Assembly (NCBI GenBank): GCA_021234155.1
Contig: JAJEKV010000070.1
Coordinates: forward strand, 5,236,754 to 5,300,753
Source of the DNA: Isoetes taiwanensis
Lineage: Eukaryota > Streptophyta > Lycopodiopsida > Isoetales > Isoetaceae
Reading direction: 5' to 3'
Length of the DNA: 64,000 nucleotides
Shown here piece by piece: positions 8,134 through 64,000 of the stretch. The stretch's first letter is position 1; every line of letters starts with the position of its first letter. A program made the position numbers and the translations under genes. The notes beneath the pieces are model-generated. The model searched no databases. It was not told where the DNA came from and worked only from the letters and a program-made list of their open reading frames with translations.

Positions 8134-11003
8134 AATCTAGTAATGACATCTTAAAACTATCCTAAACTGTGACATGGTTTGGATTAATAAGAAATATTGT
8201 CCCGATGCCACCTTAAGGCCACTGCACCAAAAGCTCTTGTATGGGAGTCTTAAGATTAAATTAGAACTTTTAGCTAACTTGCAGATATAAATCAATTATT
8301 GGAATGTCCCTTGTGAAAAGTCTCAGCATTTTAGATGGGCTTAGAGAATGTTTTAATATGTATTCTAGGATTTACCATGAAGGAATGTTTTTGAGTAATT
8401 CTTATATTGGAGAGGGATGACTACTTCAAGTATGGACTAGATAATGATGCTCTTGGTCGTTTTATATCTTTCCTTATGTAATAAAATAACTTGGAGATCC
8501 TAGGGGAAATTGATTTGATTGCAGAACGACACCCTTCCTGAAATCATTTAAGTAGACATTTAAGTAATTACAAGTTCCTGTTGGATTTGTGCAGACATTT
8601 AAGTCATCCAGCTTGCAAACCTTACTATTCTTTCTAGAAATGTCATATTTGGCCTTGGGGAAGTGGTTCTCTATAATGCCTGCTAGGCTTGTCTTTTTTT
8701 AGTCTTTTGTACCTTTGATATATTTGGTATCTTGTTCTTCATCATCTCTATTGTGATGGGAATGCATTTTGGGTATAGTTTATGGCTTTGAATTTGTGGG
8801 GTGGGGAAGGGGATGTGTGTGCAAGTGTTTCTATTTTTATATCTCATGTTGGGGAAAAGGTGCCTTGTGGCTTAATTTATATTATATATATATTTTTGAG
8901 AGATGGGATGCACCTAGGCAAAATTCTACGTTGGGGGCATTTGAAATTTTAAAATGTTTAGCATCATCATTAATGGAGGTGCCAACATTCAAAGGGCCCC
9001 GGCATTTTTTTTTCTTTTTTATTATTATTGCTTCGTTTCCCGCTTGCTCCGTTTCCCGCATTTGCGTCTTTGTGTGGGTTGCCTCTTTGTGTGGGTTCAG
9101 CTTGGCGTTCCGGCCTTGAATCGTTACCTGTTTGTAGTTTTCTATTGAGGTTTCTTTAGCCTTTGATGGGATCGTTTGGCTCCTTTTGATTTATTTCATT
9201 CTTGCCCCTTTGTTCGAGTTCTTTAATCTCTTGCATGGTTTTTATTTTAGAACAGATTCAATCAATTCGGCCTCTGGACTATAGCTTGAGGGCTTTCATA
9301 TTCGTTTGCCATGTAGGCCTTTCTTGCAGTTTTTTTGCGCTCAACCTTGGACGCTTCATGCAGGTGTGGTTTTCACGAGTTCAATGTTTATTTTGTTCAA
9401 TGTTTTCGATTTTGCATGCCTCGGCAATGCAAAGTTGTGCTATATATTTGTTAAAGAACATTAAATTGATTATATCAGTGTGGGCTAAAGATTTAACATC
9501 AACAATTTCTGAACTATTTTGCAGAATATTTGATTTGATCATACTGGGCTTGTGCTTCACCGGCATTATAAGGCATTATAAGACATTCAACAAGATTGTT
9601 GTTTCTATATCATTTGGTATGGTTTTTACAAACCTTTAGTAGTTTTTTCGTATGTTCTGCTGCACCTGGAATATCTTACTTCTTGGCATGATTTATTCTG
9701 CAACTTTTGCTTAAAAGGATTAGCTTGTGGCAGAATATAGTTTTTGCAAATTGTTAATTGCTTTTTGGTCTGTTACACCTTAATTCTAGAATCGTTTACT
9801 TTCTTTGCATAATCTGTTTGCATCTTTTGCCTAAAAGGTTTATGTGGTGGCATGTGCATTCTTGTGTTCTTGCCACGGGGGATTTGGTTGATGTGGCATG
9901 ATTTATGTCCTTGCTGATTTGGTATACATGATCTATTGGCAACCGATACTTAAGAGGATCAAGATATGTTCTTTATGGAGTAATTGCACTCGCCTCTCTG
10001 CAAGCTGCTATGAATGAGGTGAGTATTTTTTTTTTATGTCATTTATTTATTGTGATAAGGCCGACACAAAAACTAGAAAACTCTTGAGATTTGCAGACAT
10101 GTAAAGGTAGAAATCTGTGCAGCTTGTCTTTATTTAAGCAAGATGGTGTATAATGCTGAACTGCGGCTTCGTTTCCAAAAATTTGCATATATAGATTGCT
10201 CAGATATTCTTGTTCAATGATGTTTTTTAAATTTGTGTGTCTTTTTAGTCAACCTGGATTAGAAAATACAAAATAGGATACAGAAGTTTCTATAATGAAT
10301 TAACAATAATTTTTTTAGAAGTTTCAAAGTTTTTGTCATTTGGATGGACCAAATGGAAATACTAGGGTTCAAATCCCTGGCCCTTGTGGTGTATGCTACT
10401 ATATGCTTATATTCAAGTCCATATACAGCTTGACATCACAATAGTGCAAATAAATCCTAATTCTTGCTAGTTTATGGCCATATATATGTTTGTAAATATT
10501 GATATTTTGATATAAGATTTTTGCATTAATTTCCTTAATGGTTTGTCTCAGGAACCTTTCTTACTTGTTATATAAAGCAAGATCAATTACACAATATAAA
10601 CATCAAGAATATGATAAAAAAAAACATGTAACAAGTTCATGGAAAAAACATTGGACACTTCTATCTTTAAATGGCAATGGTTTCTAAGGTGTGCATGTAT
10701 TGTTATATTTATGAAACTAATACCAATTGCATCATCCAAAATGCCATTGATTTGTCCTTATCATTAAATAGGTTAAAGTTGCAAGGCTTGGCTATCTTGA
10801 TACTTTTTGAGGAAAAAATGGGATATTTTGTTGTAAGGAACAACATTGGCTCATACAAAAAGCTGAGAAGGACTTCATTAGACAACCTCATTGGGTTGCA
10901 CAAAAAATTAATGTAGAAATCATCACTATTAGACAGTTAGACCACATGTTTAAAACATGGCAGTAAAGTGCTATTAAAAACAAGTATTAAAGACTAGCTT
11001 CCA
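8134..11003. other. CACTA-like interior, no gene recognised
   Basis: The stretch is T-rich and intron-like. Open frames near 8769-9640 have unnatural, hydrophobic-biased composition and no known domain. A GGGTTCAAATCCC box at 10373-10385 has no convincing partner box. Confidence 0.45.
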
Positions 11004-11238
11004 TCCTATATTATAATGTTATTGGGTAAGTATGTCGTCAACCAAACCCTAACCCTATTTTCGACCTTTAGGGTTTTCATGTAGCTCCGCTTCAACTCCT
11101 GTATGGCCGCATCTCTGGCTATGGCGACCACAAAACCTTTTGCTCCTCTGTTCCTCTGGCGGCCATCAGACTAGAAACGGCCATATTCTTTTATGAGCAC
11201 TTATTAAACAGTCGCTTCTGAGATGGCAAAGCCCTGGT

Positions 11239-11805
11239 ATGCTGGTTGGTGGCGTAATGAGAATGGATAAGGCAGATCCGGCAGCAGTTGGGAAAGGGTT
11301 TGCAGGGGTTCGTGACCGTGGTGGAGCTTCGGCGGACATTCCTAATGCTATGAAGGATAAGAAAGGTCTGGATTCTCAGCTATGGCATGCATGTGCCGGA
11401 GGTATGGTGCAGCTACCTCCCGTGGGTGCGAAAGTAATATATTTTCCTCAAGGCCATGGAGAACAAGCTGCATCCCCACCGGAGTACCCTCGCAACTTGG
11501 GGCCATCAGGAAGCATCCCTTGCCGGATTATTTCCTTAAATTTTTTGGCCGATGCAGAAACAGATGAGGTTTATGCAAAGATTAGGCTTCAGCCAGAGAA
11601 TCCGTTTGGCATTGGAAATGGGCAGGAAGAAGATGAGCCCCCATCTCTTCCTGCTGTGGAAAAACCAGCGTCCTTTGCTAAAACTCTAACCCAGAGTGAT
11701 GCAAACAATGGTGGGGGGTTTTCTGTTCCAAGGTATTGTGCAGAGACTATATTCCCAAGGCTTGATTACTCTGTTGATCCTCCTATGCAGACTGTTTTGG
11801 CAATG
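11239..11805 (+). pseudogene. Auxin response factor fragment (ARF10/16-like)
   Basis: The open frame from ATG 11239 carries the conserved ARF N-terminus, starting near residue 44 with LDSQLWHACAGGM and continuing through YFPQGHGEQA, DEVYAKIRLQP and the B3 entry FAKTLTQSDANNGGGFSVPR. It matches the ARF10/16/17 clade as I know it. ARFs are nuclear transcription factors that bind auxin response elements through the B3 domain. Homology stops abruptly after residue 189 (PPMQTVLA), in the middle of the B3 domain, and the frame ends at 11826. The rest of B3, the middle region and any PB1 domain are missing. It lies in a Helitron, about 60 bp from a second gene fragment, so it reads as captured exon sequence. 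A truncated peptide could still be made. Confidence 0.9.
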
Positions 11806-11865
11806 GAGGCGAACTGCAAAGGGTAAAACTCAGGAGTCGAGAGCTCGCAGCAGATTGATTCAGCT

Positions 11866-12479
11866 ATGCACGATTTCTGTTTCACATATCCCTATGGGAT
11901 TGCAATATTTTTGGGCGGAATCCTGGCTATTTATTGAAAGGAAGCATTCCTTCTCTAGCCGGCGGAGTCATATCCGGATCTTTGTTGCTCTTTTGCGGAA
12001 ATCGGAGCCTCAAAGCCTACCAAAAATGCTGCAATTCTTTCTCCTCTCTTTTTCTTGAAACTGGTAAGTCCTCAACTCTTTTTCTTCGTTCATTTTAGTA
12101 CCAGATCATATGTACTGCTTTTTGTTCTTAGAAAAAGCATTTACTTCTGTCAGGTCTAGGTTATTAGAGACAGTCTATTGTTTTTTCAGCTTATACAAAT
12201 GTTTTGTGAGAGGAACATCCTTCTATCACGTGTATTGTAATCCATAAAACTAAGCTCTGACTTTTCCATCATGTGTATGTTCTGTAGTTAAGTGTCAGAT
12301 GCTTTGTAATTTGATATGTGCATGCTATACATCTGGATTGTATTGTTTCTTCACATAGTCATGATAATAACTGATATAAATGGCATTGCAGTTATATCAA
12401 TTTCTTTGACATATGTGATGGGCAAAAGATATTTGTCGACTTCAAAACTATTTCCCCCTGGCATTGTAGCTGCAGTAAG
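11866..12479 (+). pseudogene. TMEM14/FAX-family gene fragment, two exons
   Basis: From ATG 11866 the reading is MHDFCFTYPYGIAIFLGGIL, then after a one-base loss near 11925 YLLKGSIPSLAGGVISGSLL in another frame, up to a GT donor at 12064. A second exon at 12392-12479 follows an AG and reads LTYVMGKRYLSTSKLFPPGI, before GTAAGG. The codon phase joins correctly across the intron (ACT G|TT). The glycine-rich repeats and the YVMGKRY/FPPGIVA segment are typical of TMEM14 proteins; plant members are the FAX fatty-acid exporters. A third exon near 12872-12930 (FYLYKL) is possible. The frameshift makes it a pseudogene. It sits just after the ARF fragment in the same Helitron and strand. Confidence 0.8.
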
Positions 12480-13037
12480 GTAAGGTTTTAGTATCTTTTA
12501 GTCACACTGCAGGGCCTGCAAATTTAGAAACTGAAGCCAAAATATACATGGTTTTGCAGTGGAGTCATGAGTCTTTTCTATTTGAGGGGGTAATCACATC
12601 AGTAAAAAGTCTAATTGAATGCATCTACTGCAATATCTTTGTATTTTATGGTCTATTTCAAATTACGATGATGACTATTACCGTGTTTTGATTGATAAGC
12701 TACTACCTTTGCTTGCCTATGATAAAATGGCATTGCAGAGGTTTCAGATTATATAAATGGCTTAGAGTTTGTTACTACATGAGAATTGCACAAATCTGGA
12801 CTTGCCAGAGATTAATCTATTCCTTTTAGCATTTCTGTTAATGCCCCTCAATTGGAAATCTGTTAATGTTGCTAGATTTGCTTTGTTTAGTACGTTGTTA
12901 TTTTCGTTTTATCTTTACAAGTTAATCTTTAGAAGTGCGTGCACAGGTACAAGGATGTTGCTAAAACAGAATGACAGTAAATGGATGGTTGTTACACCTG
13001 CATTCCACTGTATGTTATATAAATGCTGGAACGTATA

Positions 13038-14070
13038 TCCTATATAATAATGTTATAGGGTGTTGTTATCCTATAATCTGGTGATAGATTGAATCAAAGA
13101 TGACAATGAAGTGCTGCTGCATGTAGACAAGAACCATATTTTATAGAACAATGGAACTACATCAGCTTAACACATTTAAGAATATGCTGTAACATATTTA
13201 AGAATATGCTGGAAGCGGAGCCAAATGCATATCTGTGGGATCTAAGTCTAGCACCTTATGAGGTACGAGAACAACTTTTTGCCCAGCTGTTCAAATTATC
13301 TGCTTATTCTAACTGCATGGATATATGTATATTGAGTGTGCAATATGCTGTTCCAGACAACATACAGATATCTGCTGAAGGACAGCATCTTCTTTCACAC
13401 ATTTTCTGCAGCATACTCTTCGTAAGCCAAACATCTGCTCTTTATGCGCATCATTCAAGACGCTAGGGTACCTGTGTTCATGTGTAGATAGGTCATGATT
13501 AAAACTCATGTATTGTCAACATAAAGCATAGGTGATTAAAAGTCTTATGTATTGTCAACATAAAACATAGCACAGATACAATGAGGGTATGAGGGCATTT
13601 TGGGCGTAATGTTCTTAAGTAATGTTCTTAAAGGCAACAAAAATGTCTGTCCAAATGTGTGGCAAATTTACACCTTATGCCTCTCTTAATTGGATTATAT
13701 TTTTTGGCTGCACAAGCTTCTCCTGGAGGTGTTAAAATCTGACATGTAAATAGATGTTTGAAACAAAACCAATGGTGTTTAAAAATCTATCTTATGGATA
13801 AACACAACTTACACTAACAAGGAAAGGTCCTTTTTCAATACTTTCTAAAGGGTAACTATTTTAGAAAAAGGCAATTTCCTTTTTAACCTTCACTTGGGGT
13901 CCCTTTTTAGCTCTTGCAAGCTACCCAAAGCACAAAAAATACCTTTTGATAGCGTAATACCTTTGGATATTTTTGTTATAATAAATGGTCAGTGCACACT
14001 TCTCTCATTGCGATTAAAATAACTACAAACATCCAACTTATGCCCAGCAACGCTGGGTACCGTTACTAGT
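13038..14070 (+). mobile_element. Possible inner Helitron sharing the same 3' end
   Basis: A second 5'-like end, TCCTATATAATAATGTTATA, follows an A at 13037. Only one hairpin-CTAGT end is visible downstream (14070). Either a shorter 1.03-kb Helitron is nested here or the outer element duplicated its 5' end. Which 5' end pairs with 14070 cannot be decided from this window. Confidence 0.45.
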
Positions 14071-20648: not shown

Positions 20649-22834
20649 TTGTCTTCTGCATGGAATATATGGCAAGAGGACATAGAGATCTCTATGCATG
20701 TTTACTTACGCTTAATATACACATACACATCAAGATATAAAAATGTGCTTGTTATATTCCATTTTACAAACTCAGTCATATTACTATTTGTCATCTTGCA
20801 CACGTCATCACTTTGTTCAAAATAATACCTTTCCTCTTTTGTATGTATGGTGGGGATTAGACACATGGGTTTCAACATGCTTGCATGGATCCTTGCATGC
20901 ACCCATGCATGTACATATTATGCTTATTACAACACCAAGAGCAATATTAAATAAATTTTACTACCCAAAGTTTGATCCTCAATATCATCTCATTCTAGAA
21001 ATGTTCTAGCTTCAAGGACGCTCTTTGTTTTTTCATCACTTTGGCAGGCAGTGGGTTAAGCATTGTGATCCTCACAATTTTCTTAAAAGCATCTCCGCAG
21101 CAAAATCCATTTAGTTACTTATTTGGAGAATAAATTATTAAAGAGGCCTAAGCTGAGAAACTCATAGCCAGTTCCAAACTTGGTAGTAATGCCCCTCTTA
21201 AACCTCTCATAAATTGAATAATGCATATGATTGCATCAGATGCATTCTTTCCCCTAAGGACAACCTGTTGGGCAAATAAAAATGTTTCAACTCATCATTT
21301 GATAGTTTATGACCACCTATCTTGAAGTCTTGACTTTCTTCAATACCTAGTATGGATGTTTGAAATATGTGTGCATTGGATGAAGGCACTAAATATGTAT
21401 CTAACAGATAATCAATGATAAGATCATAAGGTGCCTAAAATTTGAATGAATGAATAGGATATCAATGTACTTGCACCTACAGAAAGTCTGTTGGAATAGA
21501 ATAGCTCCTCAAACATTGAAATGCTTGTGCATTCATCATAACATGTAAAGAAGAAGAAGCCAATGATTAAAGCAGAAAACTTGTGCCAATTCAAGACCTT
21601 TGCATTGTTATAGTAACCTTTTGATAAAATATATAACATTCTGCAATCAAGCAACCTTCCTTTAACCATGCTTTCCCATGGAAGCCCATGAATAATAAAG
21701 GACTACAAAAGACGTACATGTAAACCACTGCCAAGTTGTGAAGAATCAAGATTATTGTTCTGATCTATTTGCTGCAACCCTTAGGTAGTTCATGATAACT
21801 TTTGATGTGAGTTCAAGTTTTAAATATAGCTCTTTAAGTTATAGTTGTTGGAGGCAGATTTCAACAGTTAGATCACTTGACTCAATTAGAAAAGGAAATC
21901 TTGCTTTTATAACTCCTGACGCAGTCCAAAACAACACGGGTGAGGACTTGAGAATGGAAATGGGGCATTACGTAGATCATTAATAAAAAGTAGAACACAA
22001 TGTCAAAGGCAGACTCATATTCAAAATTCAACTTCAAAATCAGATTCCAACTGAGCAATGTTGCCTTAACTACTCAAAACAGAATTAAGAAATGAAAGTA
22101 ACTTCTACATAGAGGAAAAGGGAACTGATGATGGAGGTTGGATTGAGGATTTGATAATGCAAAGTGGACAAACTGGAAGGATCCAGCAAAATCTCCACCG
22201 CCAAGCTCCCTGCTATTTTGTGACAGTTCCAGGCTACTGAGAAGAAAAAACCTTACTGATTTGAAAGCTACCTGTATGTTGCTTAAAGGCTATGTAGAGC
22301 TTGTGGCAAGCAACATGACGCTGATTTCTATACATGTTCTGTGCAAGTTACAGAAGCTTTTATTCTCGATTCTGCAAGTTTGATGCTTTTCATTGCTAGT
22401 TTAATCAGCCAGTTAACATTCTCTAAAGCAAAACAACCATACAATTATGCAGAGCAAAAGGGTTGAGAGGCAGGGCAAAATATTATTGATATGATGGGAA
22501 CTGGCATGATCCGGCATAGAATTTGTTGACAACAAAATAACAAAAGATATGCAACATGCCATACCCTAATGGAAACAGTGAATGACAGGGATTTCAAGTA
22601 ATATGCTTACCAATAAGACCTTCAAAATTTTGCAGCCAACAGACTTGGTTAAGCATACAAATTTGTTGCCTATAGAGGATCAAATTAATGAAAAAAACGA
22701 AGTCAATCAATGAAGAATGAACCAAAATCAGGAAGAAAGGTTACCATATTCAGCTTGCCATTTGGTGTAGTGCGGATAAATCCGTTTCAGGATAGTATAG
22801 TCGTCACTGATTTTGTCTGTTTTATGTACATATT
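20649..22834. other. Gene-free AT-rich DNA
   Basis: Open frames are short and lack family motifs on both strands. No transposon ends were found. Confidence 0.45.
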
Positions 22835-22855
22835 ATTGCCCAGCGTTGCTGGACA
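22835..22855. repeat. Hairpin resembling a Helitron 3' stem, no CTRR end
   Basis: TTGCCCAGC and GCTGGACAA pair around a three-base loop. The word resembles the stems of the Helitron ends at 14041 and 34503, but neither flank has CTAGT or its reverse. It may be a decayed end. Confidence 0.4.
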
Positions 22856-23211
22856 ATTTTTGAAACCTGTAAGGTTGGGTTATATTCATTATTTGTTTGG
22901 TTTGTGTATAGTGGCCCTCCCTTGTAAGTTGCGTCACATTTGCTTTCAATTGTGTGGTTGCACTTTCCTTTAATGCATGAGCAAGAGCTTTAGGCTTGAG
23001 TTGTTTTTGCCCCTTAGGTGAAGATCAAACACTGGCATATATAACTATAGAACCCCCAAAAAAACCTAAAATCATTTCAAAAAATTGAAAATCCAAACTT
23101 AAAATATTCAATTCAAAATCACATCAATGCTAAGAAAAACAGGGAGGGTTTTTTTTTTTGTTACAGTAGAATTATTGGTATGCTAGAATTTAAAAGAATG
23201 CAATTTCTGTG

Positions 23212-23343
23212 GGGGGCCATATATTCTGCCATTGTATTATTTGCCCAACTAAAAAGTGCTTTGAAACTAACATGTGTAGGGAGCCATGTATTCTGCCATT
23301 GTATTATTTGCCCAACTATAAAATGCTTCGAAACTAACATGCA
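23212..23343. repeat. Tandem duplication, 66 bp unit
   Basis: Two copies share TTCTGCCATTGTATTATTTG followed by CCCAACTA and GAAACTAACATG. No gene is present. Confidence 0.8.
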
Positions 23344-23723
23344 CCCACGATTGATTAAACTTGTGTGCTTACTTTAGTACATTTTATTCCATTTTGTGGG
23401 CGCAGACATAAGTAGTTTACAATGTGTGCTTTAGCCAGGCTTGCTTAACTTTGAGTATTTTATGCTTTATGTAAATGCCACATATTGTGCAATTTTTTTA
23501 TGTAATTGCGCCATTTTGTAGCTCCATTCTGGGGCATTAAGCAAGGGCATGCACTATAACGCATACAAAGGCAGCACATGTCAGTTTGTAAGGCTGCATC
23601 ATATATGAATAATATAACAATGAAATAGTGCAATCATAGTGTCATCTAAAAGGGCACTCAAAATGATCAAAGTTGACTTCTTAGAAGATGAGGACATGAG
23701 ACGATCATGAAGTAAATGTCATA

Positions 23724-23994
23724 ACTAAATGTTAGTATATATATCATTATTACAGTTGGCACATGATCGTAATAAATCCAGTAGCTTGTACTTAGTTCCT
23801 CACCAAGAACATCTTTAAGAGAAATACAGGAATGGAATCATGGGATCGCCTCCCATCATTACTAAATGTTAGTATATGTAGCATTATTCCAGGTTGGCGA
23901 TGATCGTAATAAATCCAAAGATAGTCCGTGACTTAGTTCCTGGCCAAGAACGTCTTGAAGAGAAATACAGGAATGGAACCATGGGACCATCGTT
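23724..23994. repeat. Tandem duplication, 137 bp unit
   Basis: Copies 23724-23860 and 23861-23994 share ACTAAATGTTAGTATAT, GATCGTAATAAATCCA and GAGAAATACAGGAATGGAA. An indel and several substitutions separate them. The surrounding 24-26.5 kb holds no recognised gene. Confidence 0.8.
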
Positions 23995-25256
23995 ATAAAC
24001 CTGGAGCTTTGGTTTTCAATGTTAGACACTCGTGGTATGTTGCAAGTGCAACCATTCATAAGTTGCCAATATTCTAAGAACTTACTTGAAGAACCATGCA
24101 GCCAAATATAAAGAAAAAATAACCATTCCTCATATTTCAGCATCCTTCTTTGATTCTATACACTCTCCAATATTTTGTTGCACTAACCAAGCTGGCAGAT
24201 GATGAGAGTCTAATATTGCTTAAAGCCTTATTGGACTACACATGTGGTTATCATTCAACATCCAGCACCATGAATTACTTACAGTAGCATATAAGCTCGA
24301 CACTATATGAAGTTTCCTAATACATATAAGTATTTCTATGAATCTGCAGAACATTTTGCAAGGGTATTTAATAAAAAACATGTGATACAACATCATCTTG
24401 ATCGATTCCACTCAACCATTTTGAAGCTCTTCTTTCGCATTGCAGATCACACGTATTGTACATGCACTCAGCAATCCTATCCAAGGTGTCACACTGGGTT
24501 ACAAAGGGTAGTTGTCAATTAATCCCTCAGCTTCGTCTTACCATCCTGCTCACCGAAGAAGATTAACCATGCAATCATGAAGCTGCATTACTTCTGTAAC
24601 AACATAGTTTTTGCTCATAGTATTACAGACAAAAGTAATGGACAGAAAAGTCAAATTGTTTGGCAGCACAGCTTCTAGAAGCATTATTTGAAGCAAACTT
24701 AGAACAATCTTATCAAGACCATTAAGAAAGGATTATAATCATGACCATCCAAGTAATCACATCGTAGAGGACTATAGAATGGTTTTGAGTATCCGCTGGA
24801 ATGTTGCCACATTTACCATGGATGGGTAACTTTTTAATTGACCTACCCAGTTTTTTGACCATCACAGCACATATAAGCACCTTCACCAAATAATTTATGT
24901 CATCATGATTTGCATCACTAATATGGTCATTATATCCTTTATATAATAGAAAACACTCATGATTTTTTGAAGGGCAATGAAGGGCTATGGAAGGGCAATG
25001 AAGGGCAGTTTGAAGGGCAATGAAGGGCAGTCAGCACCTGTGCAGCACATGTGTCGCCCACATGCTTTTTTGAGTATGTGAATTAAAAAACCACCCGGAT
25101 ATGAATAAGTAAAAACAACAACGATGAAATCTGATGCCAGCCCAGAAGCATTTAAACAATCATGCAAAGCTTTTCCTTTTTTAAAGAGAGCTTGCTACAT
25201 AAGCACACGTTTCTCAAATACTAACTAAAGCATGCTTATCAGGCATACTACCGTTT

Positions 25257-26043
25257 GTCATTGAGCTTGCTATGCGTGGAGCCGCCAATAAAAAATTGCT
25301 ATCTTCCCAGGCTGAATATGGTTGCAATTATGTATGGGCTTGTACACCAAAAAAGCTCAACTTCCAATTCTATTCTGGGATGCCAAAGGGTCCTAGTGTT
25401 TTATTTTCTAGCACTCTTCTTCTAAAGGTTTGCCAAAAATTGAGAAGCAAGATGTATTCACCGGAAAAAGTCGATCTAACTTCCTCGATTCTCCAGCCAT
25501 GTGGTCACATCGCCCACCCTTGGTCGTGTATAATCAAGCCTATATGCTCAACATGACCATATGCCACCGGTCGAATTTCTGCAAGAATAATAAAAAGTCC
25601 CTGCTAAAATATCCCGAACTTGGCTGAATAGATCTATAGAAAGAAGTCACGATAATACAAAAAAATAAGAAGCCAAAGAAAGTTGGCTATGAATCAAATG
25701 TTCCTGGAGGAAGGCAAGTAGATTGTGGGAAAAAAGCCAGCTACCATGAAAGAAAAATAGCAGCTCACTTGAACAGAATGTGGCACTGATTTAGCCAGCA
25801 TATTGGCTACCAAATAAAAAATAATTACCTAAAGCAAATACTACGAAACTGAAGGCTCACCAAGGCTCTTGGTTCTTGCAATGATGGCTGTCTCTCAAAC
25901 ATACTATGTCAGGGAGCATATACATCACCTGCCCAGGTCATTGAGCTTGCTGTGGCTGGAGCCGCCAACAAAAAATCGCTATTTTTCCAGGCTGGATATG
26001 GTTGTAATTATATGGGCTTGTACACCAAAGGAGCTCAACTTCC
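25257..26043. repeat. Spaced pair of a 107-bp sequence
   Basis: The segments 25257-25366 and 25937-26043 are clearly related: GTCATTGAGCTTGCT, GGAGCCGCCAA and GGGCTTGTACACCAAA are shared. A frame reading VIELAxxGAANKK is open in both, but no family is recognised. The 570 bp between them is unrelated. Confidence 0.6.
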
Positions 26044-26565
26044 TTATGCTAAAAGAACTCATGAGAATCAAACTTCAATGCCTCCTACACAATAATCGCC
26101 ACAATATCATTCCGATTATATTCACCAAAGAATCACCAGGCAAAGTTTCTTTCTTGCCTCTATAATAATGGGGTAAAGAGAGCATTTGAATGGCTATTCT
26201 GGATTAACAAAATCGTGCACCATTGTACTTGCTTAACTATGGTTTTGCAGAAAAAATTTAAAGGTATCATCACCAAGAAGCCTATCTGCCAATGAGAAAA
26301 TCATACACCAAGAAGCCTATCTGCCAATGAGAAAATCATACATAAGGTAGGAAAAACGTTCCTTAGTGGATTGAACCCGCAAAGAACTAATAGTATTCAA
26401 GATCTTTGGATATAGCACTCCAAAATTCTTCAAGAAGCACCGCCGAAAATGGATCCGGGAAGCTGTTTTGGGGCAATCCAGATGGTGGCAGAGGTCGAAA
26501 TGGCCAAAGCCGCTAAAGATGCAGCTACACTTGACCGCATATCCACCTCCGTGGCTAGAGTAGGC

Positions 26566-26837
26566 ATCAAAACGGGCTTGATAGGGTAACAAAAATTGTA
26601 ACGCATTTTTTAGTTGAATCCTCATCGTCCAACCGGGTCAATCAAATCGTGGCCATTGAATCTAGGGCTGGATGCAACACAGTAAAACATTATAATATAG
26701 GATCAAAACGGGCTGATAGGGTAACAAAAATTGTAACGCATTTTTTAGTTGAATCCTCATCGTCCAACCGCGTCAATCAAATCGTGGCCATTGAATCTAG
26801 GGCTGGATGCAACACAGTAAAACATTATAATATAGGA
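26566..26837 (-). mobile_element. Doubled Helitron 5' end, minus strand
   Basis: Read on the minus strand, TCCTATATTATAATGTTTTA starts at 26837 and again at 26702, each preceded by A in element orientation. Each starts a 136-bp unit, so the first 136 bp of the element is present twice in tandem. After the terminus, TGTTGCATCCAGCCCTA resembles TGTTGGACCCAGCCCTA next to the 5' end at 61493. The body would extend to lower coordinates. No certain 3' end (reverse of CTAGT with hairpin) was found. Confidence 0.7.
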
Positions 26838-58494: not shown

Positions 58495-58534
58495 TGTTGT
58501 CATGTGTAGCAACGCCGGGCACACATTTACTAAT
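58495..58534 (+). mobile_element. Decayed Helitron 3' end near the transporter gene
   Basis: GCAACGCCGGGCACACATTTA is followed by CTAAT, similar to the end at 55798 (CCGGGCACACGTTTCTAGT). The left arm of the stem is damaged. The terminus lies 115 bp beyond the stop codon of the convergent transporter gene. Confidence 0.6.
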
Positions 58535-61492: not shown

Positions 61493-64000
61493 TCTTATAT
61501 TATAATGTTATTGTGTAAGTGTTGGACCCAGCCCTAATTTGGACGATCCAGATTTGATCAAGCCAATGGAGGAGATGATGCCACGTCATATCCTTAAAAA
61601 TAACTTGGGTTTTTTTTTGGCTAGGGTTAGCGAGGGCGGCCATCGCACCTTCGAGGTCTCTACCATTATTTGATCCTCATTCCGGCGAGCAGCTTGGGGC
61701 AAAACGAAGATGTATTATAGGGGTTCCAAGCATGAGCTCGAAGTTCGTGGCTATGGCCACCATCGAAAAAGATGGTCAGCCAAGAATGTACGATATTTAT
61801 TTTGAGGTTGATGTTGCGAAATTAGTAGACCGTAAGAAGCCCGAAGCCCAGATCGTTGCGGCCCTCCCCTCTTTCAAGATCCTTCCGCCATATGTAATAG
61901 CAGAGTTGGTTAAGCTTTTGTTTCCAATCCGGACAGCTAGGGTGTGGCTATATCTTGAGTTCAAACTCGGAACATGGTTCAAAGTCTTGAAGAACAGCTT
62001 ATAGATTTTGACGGCATAATGTGCAAATTTACATCTATTTTCCTTTCAAGCCGCCTTCACCGGATCAAAAGCCGCTCGAGTAGAGCATAATGTCTCAAAA
62101 AGCTGGCGTGGTACACCTTTTCTTTTTGGTTCCAGAGCATGCTACAAATAAGTATTCTTCTCCCTTGATCAATGTTACACAATAAGTATGCTTCCATGAT
62201 CCGCCTGATATCGCGCAAGAACTTATGTGGGTCCAACTCGCTAGATGGTCGTCCGGCAAACCGTAGAACCTAGCTTCATTTTTGTTAGGCATCTTTTCTC
62301 GAACTTCTATTTACGAGGTAATGATACTTCTTCTCATGTTTGCACACCTCTTCCTTTTGAAACAGAGCCTCGAGCCTCTCCACATTGCTCCCGAAGAGAA
62401 ACATTTAAAAAATGTTTTTAATTATAAGCTTTTCCCTTTTGCAACAATTTTTTTCTAAATGTTGCATCTTTTTATGCCATTATCATCTTTTGTGTATGAG
62501 TTGGTCCATTCATAGCTTTGGTAGTCATACTTGCTTAGCTTAGGTATGCCCTACGTTGTGAGTGACTGAGTTTTATGTCTTTTGGTTTTAGAATCAACAA
62601 TATGAATAGAAAGACCTGTTTTTGTCTCGGAAGCTTCCTCGCTCGCCGACATCATGTTGTATCTTGGAATGCGATTGACCTTCACCTTACATGGTAAGTT
62701 GATCCATGTATATGTATATGTTATGAAAGTACCATAATGCTTGGAGCCATTAGTCTTAAGTTTGTAAGTTGATATGTTTCTCAAATACGAGGCTGGATGA
62801 TTGCCAAGTACAGCTTTCAAATCAGGCCTTTGCACGATGTGCCATCATGGAACAAGATGATTGTTTGCGATGTGCACAAATAACCGGTTTATGAAGCTAT
62901 TGCGTGCCATTATATTATAGCCTTATTCTTTGCAAAGAAAAGCTTTCTTTCAAGGTATGCTCGATCCCCCATTTACACATTCCTCTATCAAATAGCTATT
63001 AGCGAGGCAATGCCACAATGACAATTCTTTTGCATTTTCTACATCCAAGCAAGATAATTTTAAACATGGCTCCACAATAATTTATCTTGGCGAGCTATGC
63101 CTTTGTATCTCATATGTGTGCAAGTTAGTAGGTTCTGTTAACTGCACAAGAACCATTTCTAGAATGTTCTATTTTCTTTCTACATTGTTTTGCGGTGGTG
63201 TAGGAACTTTAAAATGCACCAAGTGATCCCCGTGAAACTGGTTATTTAAAGAAGTCGCCAACTAAACATAATACAATGGGAAACTATTTTCTTCTATAAA
63301 ACACCACAGCCAGTGGCCAAGCTTTTGAAGAACAAAGGCAAAATGTATGCAAAGAATAGTATAGCAACAATAGTGGCAACAATTGTACTTTGTTGTGCGG
63401 ATGTCAAATTATGCGCTTGAGTTGCCACTATATGCTTGAGTTGCTACTATATGCAAGAAGAAATAGCCACAGATTTGAAGATACCGAAGAGCATAAATCA
63501 GATAGTCAATTTTCTTTTAATAAATTCGGGTTTCACATCCATGACCTTGGGCATTTCACAACCGACTATATTGAATAAGAAAAACTTAGAAAGTGCAAAT
63601 AGAATTTGACTTGAAGTTCAATTTGAAAAAAGAAACTATTGAGTCGCAAATTATTAAGTATACAGATACAAATTTGATAGGACATGGTCTCGCATATAAA
63701 CCTTTGTATATGCAATTTACGCTGATTATTGAAGATTTCCTTTATGCATCATGGTCCCGGAGGAGCTCTCATGAAAATTCAAACTTCGAGAACAAGAAAC
63801 ATCATTTTTCCAATGCACCCCATTCTGTTGTAGCCTTATTCTTTTGCAAGGAAGGCTAAAACTCCATTCTTCTTTTCTTCTATCATGTGCAATCTAAGAA
63901 GGCAAAGTAGTTTTGATGACAGGATAAACATTAGCAAGGGAATGTTTTCACATCATGCTCGCCATTGGTTTGCAAATATATATTTCAAAAGATTCTGTTG
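61493..64000 (+). mobile_element. Helitron 5' end, body runs off the window
   Basis: TCTTATATTATAATGTTATT follows an A at 61492 and matches the 5' ends at 11004 and 26837. Similarity to the latter continues into the body (GTTG-A-CCAGCCCTA). No hairpin-CTRRT end was seen before 64000, so the length is unknown. Just inside, a 90-codon open frame (61732-62004; MSSKFVAMATIEKDGQPRMY onwards) has natural composition but no known domain. A minus-strand open stretch at 62551-62835 (VNRIPRYNMMSASEEASETK) is also unrecognised. The rest is AT-rich without genes. Confidence 0.75.

Follow-up and report, generated by a model that had tools for sequence, protein, structure and literature searches.

Stepwise capture of host sequence by Helitrons is already known from maize, and the case presented here is a further example. 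In the sections of Dong et al. 2011 (PMC3288121) that deal with the ZmhelA2/ZmhelA3 series, stepwise capture is described, including the addition of a fragment beside the first 25 bp of the 5' terminus, as are internal pseudo-termini. For Helraiser, capture by read-through past the 3' end is described in the corresponding part of PMC4778049.

The element analysed here lies in a stretch of 64,000 nucleotides from Isoetes taiwanensis (G000:C1079:5236754-5300753, genome size 1.66 Gb), referred to as the window, to which all positions refer unless a locus is named. It is almost certainly a non-autonomous plant Helitron that took up host sequence in steps, namely a piece of an ARF gene and a FAX gene. 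Like the maize ZmhelA2/ZmhelA3 elements, as far as they are described in the sections cited (PMC3288121), it carries several host fragments, has relatives that differ by one fragment near the 5' terminus, contains internal pseudo-termini, shows TC...hairpin...CTAG ends and is inserted between A and T. Unlike in that account, the captured genes and the plant are others and the 5' end has been exchanged; compared with the maize series as presented there, the material here includes the likely parents, the ARF insertion on both of its sides, a leader free of FAX and elements with FAX only. Host DNA transduced by a Helitron and ended by a 3' hairpin and CTAG is likewise found in Helraiser/Helibat, where, according to the part of PMC4778049 cited, read-through adds DNA at the 3' side, whereas the ARF piece appears to have entered on the 5' side, ahead of a FAX gene already present. 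In a limited literature search, the titles of papers on ARF and Helitron did not mention capture of an ARF gene by a Helitron, and no paper was found for Helitron together with FATTY ACID EXPORT.

Element boundaries and insertion site

The Helitron extends from 11004 to 14069 and is preceded by A. The sequence-only reading had assigned it canonical ends and the span 11004-14070; the ends and the start were confirmed, and the last base of the element is 14069, position 14070 being the host T. The 5' end (11004-11224, + strand) begins with TC at 11004 (TCCTATATTATAATG...), and its portion 11004-11174 is a multi-copy 5' end of a different type from those of the other three ARF-FAX elements. The 3' end (13950-14069, + strand) terminates with CTAG at 14066-14069 (...CCCAGCAACGCTGGGTACCGTTACTAG, followed by T) and contains a hairpin with a 7-bp stem (14042-14058), placed 11 bp from the end (stem z -2.25, equally good in 6/200 shuffles). 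Both ends are repeated across the genome, with counts that are lower bounds.

The flanks of the element are part of a repeat. To find empty sites, they were joined at 11003/14070 and used as a query, and the best 40 of 1746 first-look candidates were scored. The joint was spanned by 38 of these 40 rows, the other two being the window's own halves. Six of the 38 were aligned, and all six paralogous sites were gapless at the joint without duplication, reading ...ACTAGCTTCCA/TTAAACC..., i.e. ...CCA/TTAA..., where the slash marks the joint. The window element inserted precisely between A and T without duplicating its target site, and it combines the properties by which Helitrons are recognised: 5'-TC/3'-CTRR termini, a short hairpin about 10-12 bp ahead of the 3' end, A/T insertion without duplication and multi-copy ends. 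Pack-MULEs are transposons with gene pieces, terminal inverted repeats and target-site duplications; the element resembles them in having gene pieces aboard and differs in that its empty sites show no duplication.

The longest open reading frame inside the element encodes 195 aa, and no Rep match was obtained with three window ORFs and the FAX protein (the 61-aa and 120-aa ORFs were left out). As it contains no RepHel transposase, the element is non-autonomous.

Elsewhere in the window, pattern matching with mismatches allowed pointed to a possible Helitron-like element of about 4 kb on the minus strand (22822-26837) and to further Helitron-like termini, one of them a 5' end (near 61493, +) and three of them 3' ends (near 58533, +; 34489, -; 17419, -).

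Origin of the captured sequences

The first captured piece (11225-11801, + strand) derives from the first exon of an ARF gene of the ARF10/16/17 type and matches locus L014 on contig C1044 at 98.8% over 577 bp. L014, the likely parent, has B3 and ARF_AD domains and two long open frames with an intron between them, and its frame runs past the break point of the captured piece; it also carries a miR160-like site, which we take to link it to the ARF10/16/17 clade. The window piece lacks the parent's ATG and is cut within the B3 domain. A single, weak B3 match (0.24) was obtained with its ORF, extending over 27 of 101 positions, compared with a full B3 in the parent, and the domain scan detected no ARF_AD in the fragment, which does not possess the complete B3 and ancillary domains of a functional ARF. 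Its 195-codon ORF (11239-11826, + strand) comprises ARF residues followed by MEANCKG, the last seven codons being read from a Helitron leader remnant and the FAX 5'UTR. An ARF N-terminus cut in B3 and open for 195 codons is what had been read from the letters alone, and no full-length ARF reading through 11805 was found. Within the common 560-bp region, the piece differs from L014 by seven substitutions, five nonsynonymous and two synonymous (against 426 and 135 sites), a pattern close to neutral. With so few changes since the parent, a frame that is still open over 195 codons is expected.

The ARF piece might work via small RNAs, with a transcribed element giving rise to siRNAs that lower the parent ARF. 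Identity to the parent extends to 453 of 557 21-mers and 438 of 554 24-mers, and maize Helitrons with captured sequence are described, in the relevant part of a review (PMC13317346), as siRNA reservoirs able to silence their donors. Against this, the element is devoid of the parent's miR160-like site and its three inverted repeats (of at least 16 nt) all lie outside the ARF part, so that such an activity is considered unlikely.

The second captured piece is a FAX (Tmemb_14) gene, which extends from the 5'UTR to 3' sequence (11813-12825, + strand) and matches locus L011 at 95.3%. Its three exons (11866-12063, 12392-12479 and 12560-12618) run from start to stop codon, and the ATG at 11866 is located 64 bp past the ARF joint on the same strand. 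The earlier description of FAX sequence with an intron about 60 bp behind ARF in the same orientation was therefore accurate, whereas the two-exon fragment that it envisaged turned out to be the whole gene, with all three exons but disabled. Relative to L011, a 1-bp deletion shifts the frame in exon 1 and 15 bp are deleted from exon 3; the open three-exon frame of a functional FAX/TMEM14 gene is lost in the window copy. The read-through FAX protein from the window matched Pfam PF03647 (E 2.5e-22), the query being a hand-made read-through translation that wrongly included 12947-12972 as a fourth exon. This fourth exon was rejected, as the gene ends in exon 3.

L011 (contig C1019) contains an open three-exon FAX gene ending in ...GGNHISKKSN, and no matching Helitron terminus was present in its 9.5-kb stretch. 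This open gene is, judged by sequence comparison, the likely FAX parent of the window copy; as the correspondence between L011 and the captured sequence ends at 12825, this locus is perhaps not the exact donor. Over about 1 kb that includes the introns, the two sequences are separated by 25 substitutions, and the retention of introns indicates capture from DNA rather than from mRNA. Three other loci (L051, L058 and L059) were rejected as FAX parents, with matches of 101, 59 and 54 bp, plus 19 bp in L058, in the stretches compared.

Structure of the chimera and order of capture

Between ARF and FAX, 13 bp of the native Helitron 5' leader remain (GCAATGGAGGCGA, 11800-11812, + strand), as identified by comparison with L017, L012 and L020; GC is common to this remnant and ARF (2-bp microhomology). 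All 19 first-look candidates of a search for the ARF-FAX joint were scored, and the joint was spanned at four of these places: the window, L013 (C770), L010 (C908) and L009 (C1087). No ARF-FAX arrangement lacking Helitron ends was encountered: both ends are present in L009 and L010, which have one type of 5' end in common, and a Helitron 5' end is present in L013, for which the stretch examined yielded no 3' end. The 1.5-kb flanks of L009 and L010 do not match each other, so that this version of the chimera moved as a unit. In L010 (3195-6420), a CTAG end lies 3 bp before the ARF-FAX element and another 5' end directly past the element's 3' end.

The sister copies bear on the proposal that the 195-codon frame encodes a truncated ARF peptide or a chimeric protein under selection. 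This frame is intact in the window, and a 170-codon open stretch is also kept in L013. That stretch is out of frame with the parent ATG, owing to a net 29-bp deletion in the ARF part of L013, and the longest open ARF stretches reach 90 codons in L009 and 89 in L010, where assembly errors may have shortened them. In the window, the parent's ATG and 5'UTR are lost, the B3 domain is reduced to the 27 positions given above and FAX exon 1 is frameshifted. Together with the ratio of five nonsynonymous to two synonymous changes and a frame broken or shortened in all three sister copies, these observations make a selected product very improbable, and a selected form of the peptide suggested by the sequence-only reading finds no support.

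The sequence of events can be approached from the forms of the leader. The native leader (...CTAATCTACCTGTTGTTGTTGAGATGAACGCAGATAGCAATGGAGGCGATGG) is found in L017, a locus without FAX exons. In L012, a FAX-only element for which no 3' end was located within the stretch examined, it is uninterrupted and joined to FAX at GGCGA. L020 and L021 are likewise FAX-only, with a small leader deletion; they have flanks in common and may be one insertion in duplicate. In L013, the leader ends at CTACCT and is followed by ARF from 8 bp before the ATG and then by GCAATGGAGGCGA and FAX, with ARF replacing 22-25 bp of the leader. At the 5' joint no overlap was seen, and at the 3' joint GC is common to both sides, a pattern that fits insertion during gap repair. 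The leader is split by ARF in L013 and uninterrupted in the FAX-only L012, which argues that ARF entered an element already bearing FAX. Divergence alone leaves the order of the captures undecided (25 substitutions over about 1 kb in FAX, 7 in 560 bp of coding sequence in ARF); from the forms seen, we infer that FAX was captured first and ARF second. The joining of two unlinked host genes, proposed from the window alone, is borne out by likely parents on two contigs, to which the present analysis adds that it would have taken two steps.

That the ARF-FAX fusion already existed in a host gene and was captured in a single step is the least credible alternative, since, even with all four near-identical ARF pieces outside the parent (window included) joined to FAX among the best 40 of 1082 candidates scored, a 13-bp piece of Helitron leader separates ARF from FAX, the leader of FAX-only elements meets FAX at the same joint and no host locus with the fusion occurs among the 19 places scored.

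Under stepwise capture, the start of the ARF piece also records changes of the 5' end. The piece begins with its ATG behind the original leader in L013, 15 bp later behind a different multi-copy 5' end in the window and later still behind a third 5' end in L009/L010. Three different 5' ends on the same chimera imply that the 5' end was exchanged at least twice. No second copy of the window's 5' end joined to ARF was detected among the best 40 of 231 candidates scored, and the last exchange in the window line accordingly rests on one copy.

A copy of about 29 bp of the original family's 5' terminus, apparently filler, is present at 13038-13066 (+ strand) and missing from the corresponding position in L015 and L016. 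A second, nested Helitron starting at 13038 was considered and rejected, because the insert consists of only these about 29 bp.

Divergence at CG/CHG motifs

Clustering of differences at CG/CHG motifs was assessed by circular shift. Compared with the parent ARF, 50 of 63 differing positions in L009 and 72 of 117 in L010 fell at such motifs, a zone that makes up 34% of the sequence (p 0.001 for L009 ARF, p 0.0025 for L010 ARF). The FAX parts behaved similarly (L009 70/123, p 0.0035; L010 80/159, p 0.003), as did L021 compared with L020 (188 of 398 differences in a zone of 19%, p 0.0005). No such clustering was observed for the ARF paralogue L022 (34/107, p 0.6) or the FAX-only L012 (6/21, p 0.48), and it was not significant in the window (ARF 5/7, p 0.08; FAX 15/46, p 0.2). 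With 42 ARF substitutions in L009 and, depending on the alignment, 87 or 92 in L010, these two copies look older, and the differences in L009, L010 and L021 include many indels and transversions. The differences at CG/CHG motifs are probably not a sign of age but noise introduced at methylated cytosines by assembly or base calling. Because of their clustering, L009 and L010 were not used as clocks, and dating of the captures by divergence was dropped in view of the pattern in L009, L010 and L021. The error pattern could serve as a methylation footprint, and it warns against the dating of transposons by divergence in this assembly.

Family relatives and the leader

The remainder of the element (12826-13949, + strand) is common to several other elements of its Helitron family, and its portion 13067-13949 also occurs in L015 (C967:730000-739500, minus strand). 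There, a Helitron_like_N match lies beside FAX and the family leader; this Rep-like reading frame is located on the same strand downstream of a PPR-like frame (named by eye), FAX sequence, the 13067-13949-like sequence and a copy of the leader. Helitron_like_N is abundant in the genome, with at least 150 matches (every one of the 150 candidates scored, out of 1813, exceeded the cut-off). Since a leader copy is situated upstream of the Rep match in L015, the leader may be the 5' region of the Rep gene.

L012 (C401:360500-370000, minus strand) combines a Helitron 5' end and the leader with an open three-exon FAX frame, whose first splice donor is GC, not GT. It may thus hold a whole, putatively working FAX gene behind a Helitron leader. 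These arrangements, with ARF including its own ATG in L013 and an open three-exon FAX in L012, each directly behind the leader, are the basis for a tentative and rather doubtful proposal: cargo would be acquired at the 5' side by template switching at a transcribed 5' gap and put under the transposase promoter, and exchange of ends would keep it mobile. The proposal depends on the leader being the transposase's own promoter and 5'UTR. If true, this route would be distinct from 3' read-through and could carry whole working genes.

Three further observations were made on relatives of the element. In L015, upstream of the leader, the PPR-like frame continues into the first exon of FAX, but in another reading frame. 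A similar arrangement of FAX and leader is present in L024, about 21 kb from L015. In L016 and L026 (C974:5562905-5576051), about 13.1 kb of sequence in the opposite orientation, flanked by Helitron-like ends, seems to split a FAX copy, the pairing of the two ends being a guess.

Discussion

The likely parents, the joints, FAX-only and FAX-free leaders, different 5' ends and the empty site were all seen directly, and the following history would connect them. An element of the family would have taken up FAX as DNA, introns included, immediately behind the 5' leader. Subsequently, a piece of ARF exon 1 about 590 bp long, beginning 8 bp ahead of the ATG and ending in B3, would have entered the leader of the FAX-carrying element and replaced 22-25 bp. 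The 5' end would then have been swapped once in the L009/L010 line and once in the window line, with the ARF start trimmed each time, before the window element inserted between A and T within a repeat. The pieces were probably joined by template switching or filler-DNA repair, not by 3' read-through; RepHel from autonomous relatives would have moved the window element, and the captured cargo is presumably neutral.

Gene capture of this sort is ordinary for plant genomes, whose genes are reshuffled by Helitrons, while the capture step itself is still debated. The series described here is unusually complete for one genome, comprising a FAX-free leader, FAX-only forms, ARF together with FAX, exchanged 5' ends, likely parents and empty sites. 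It argues that a second gene can enter a Helitron on the 5' side, an entry for which 3' read-through alone does not account.
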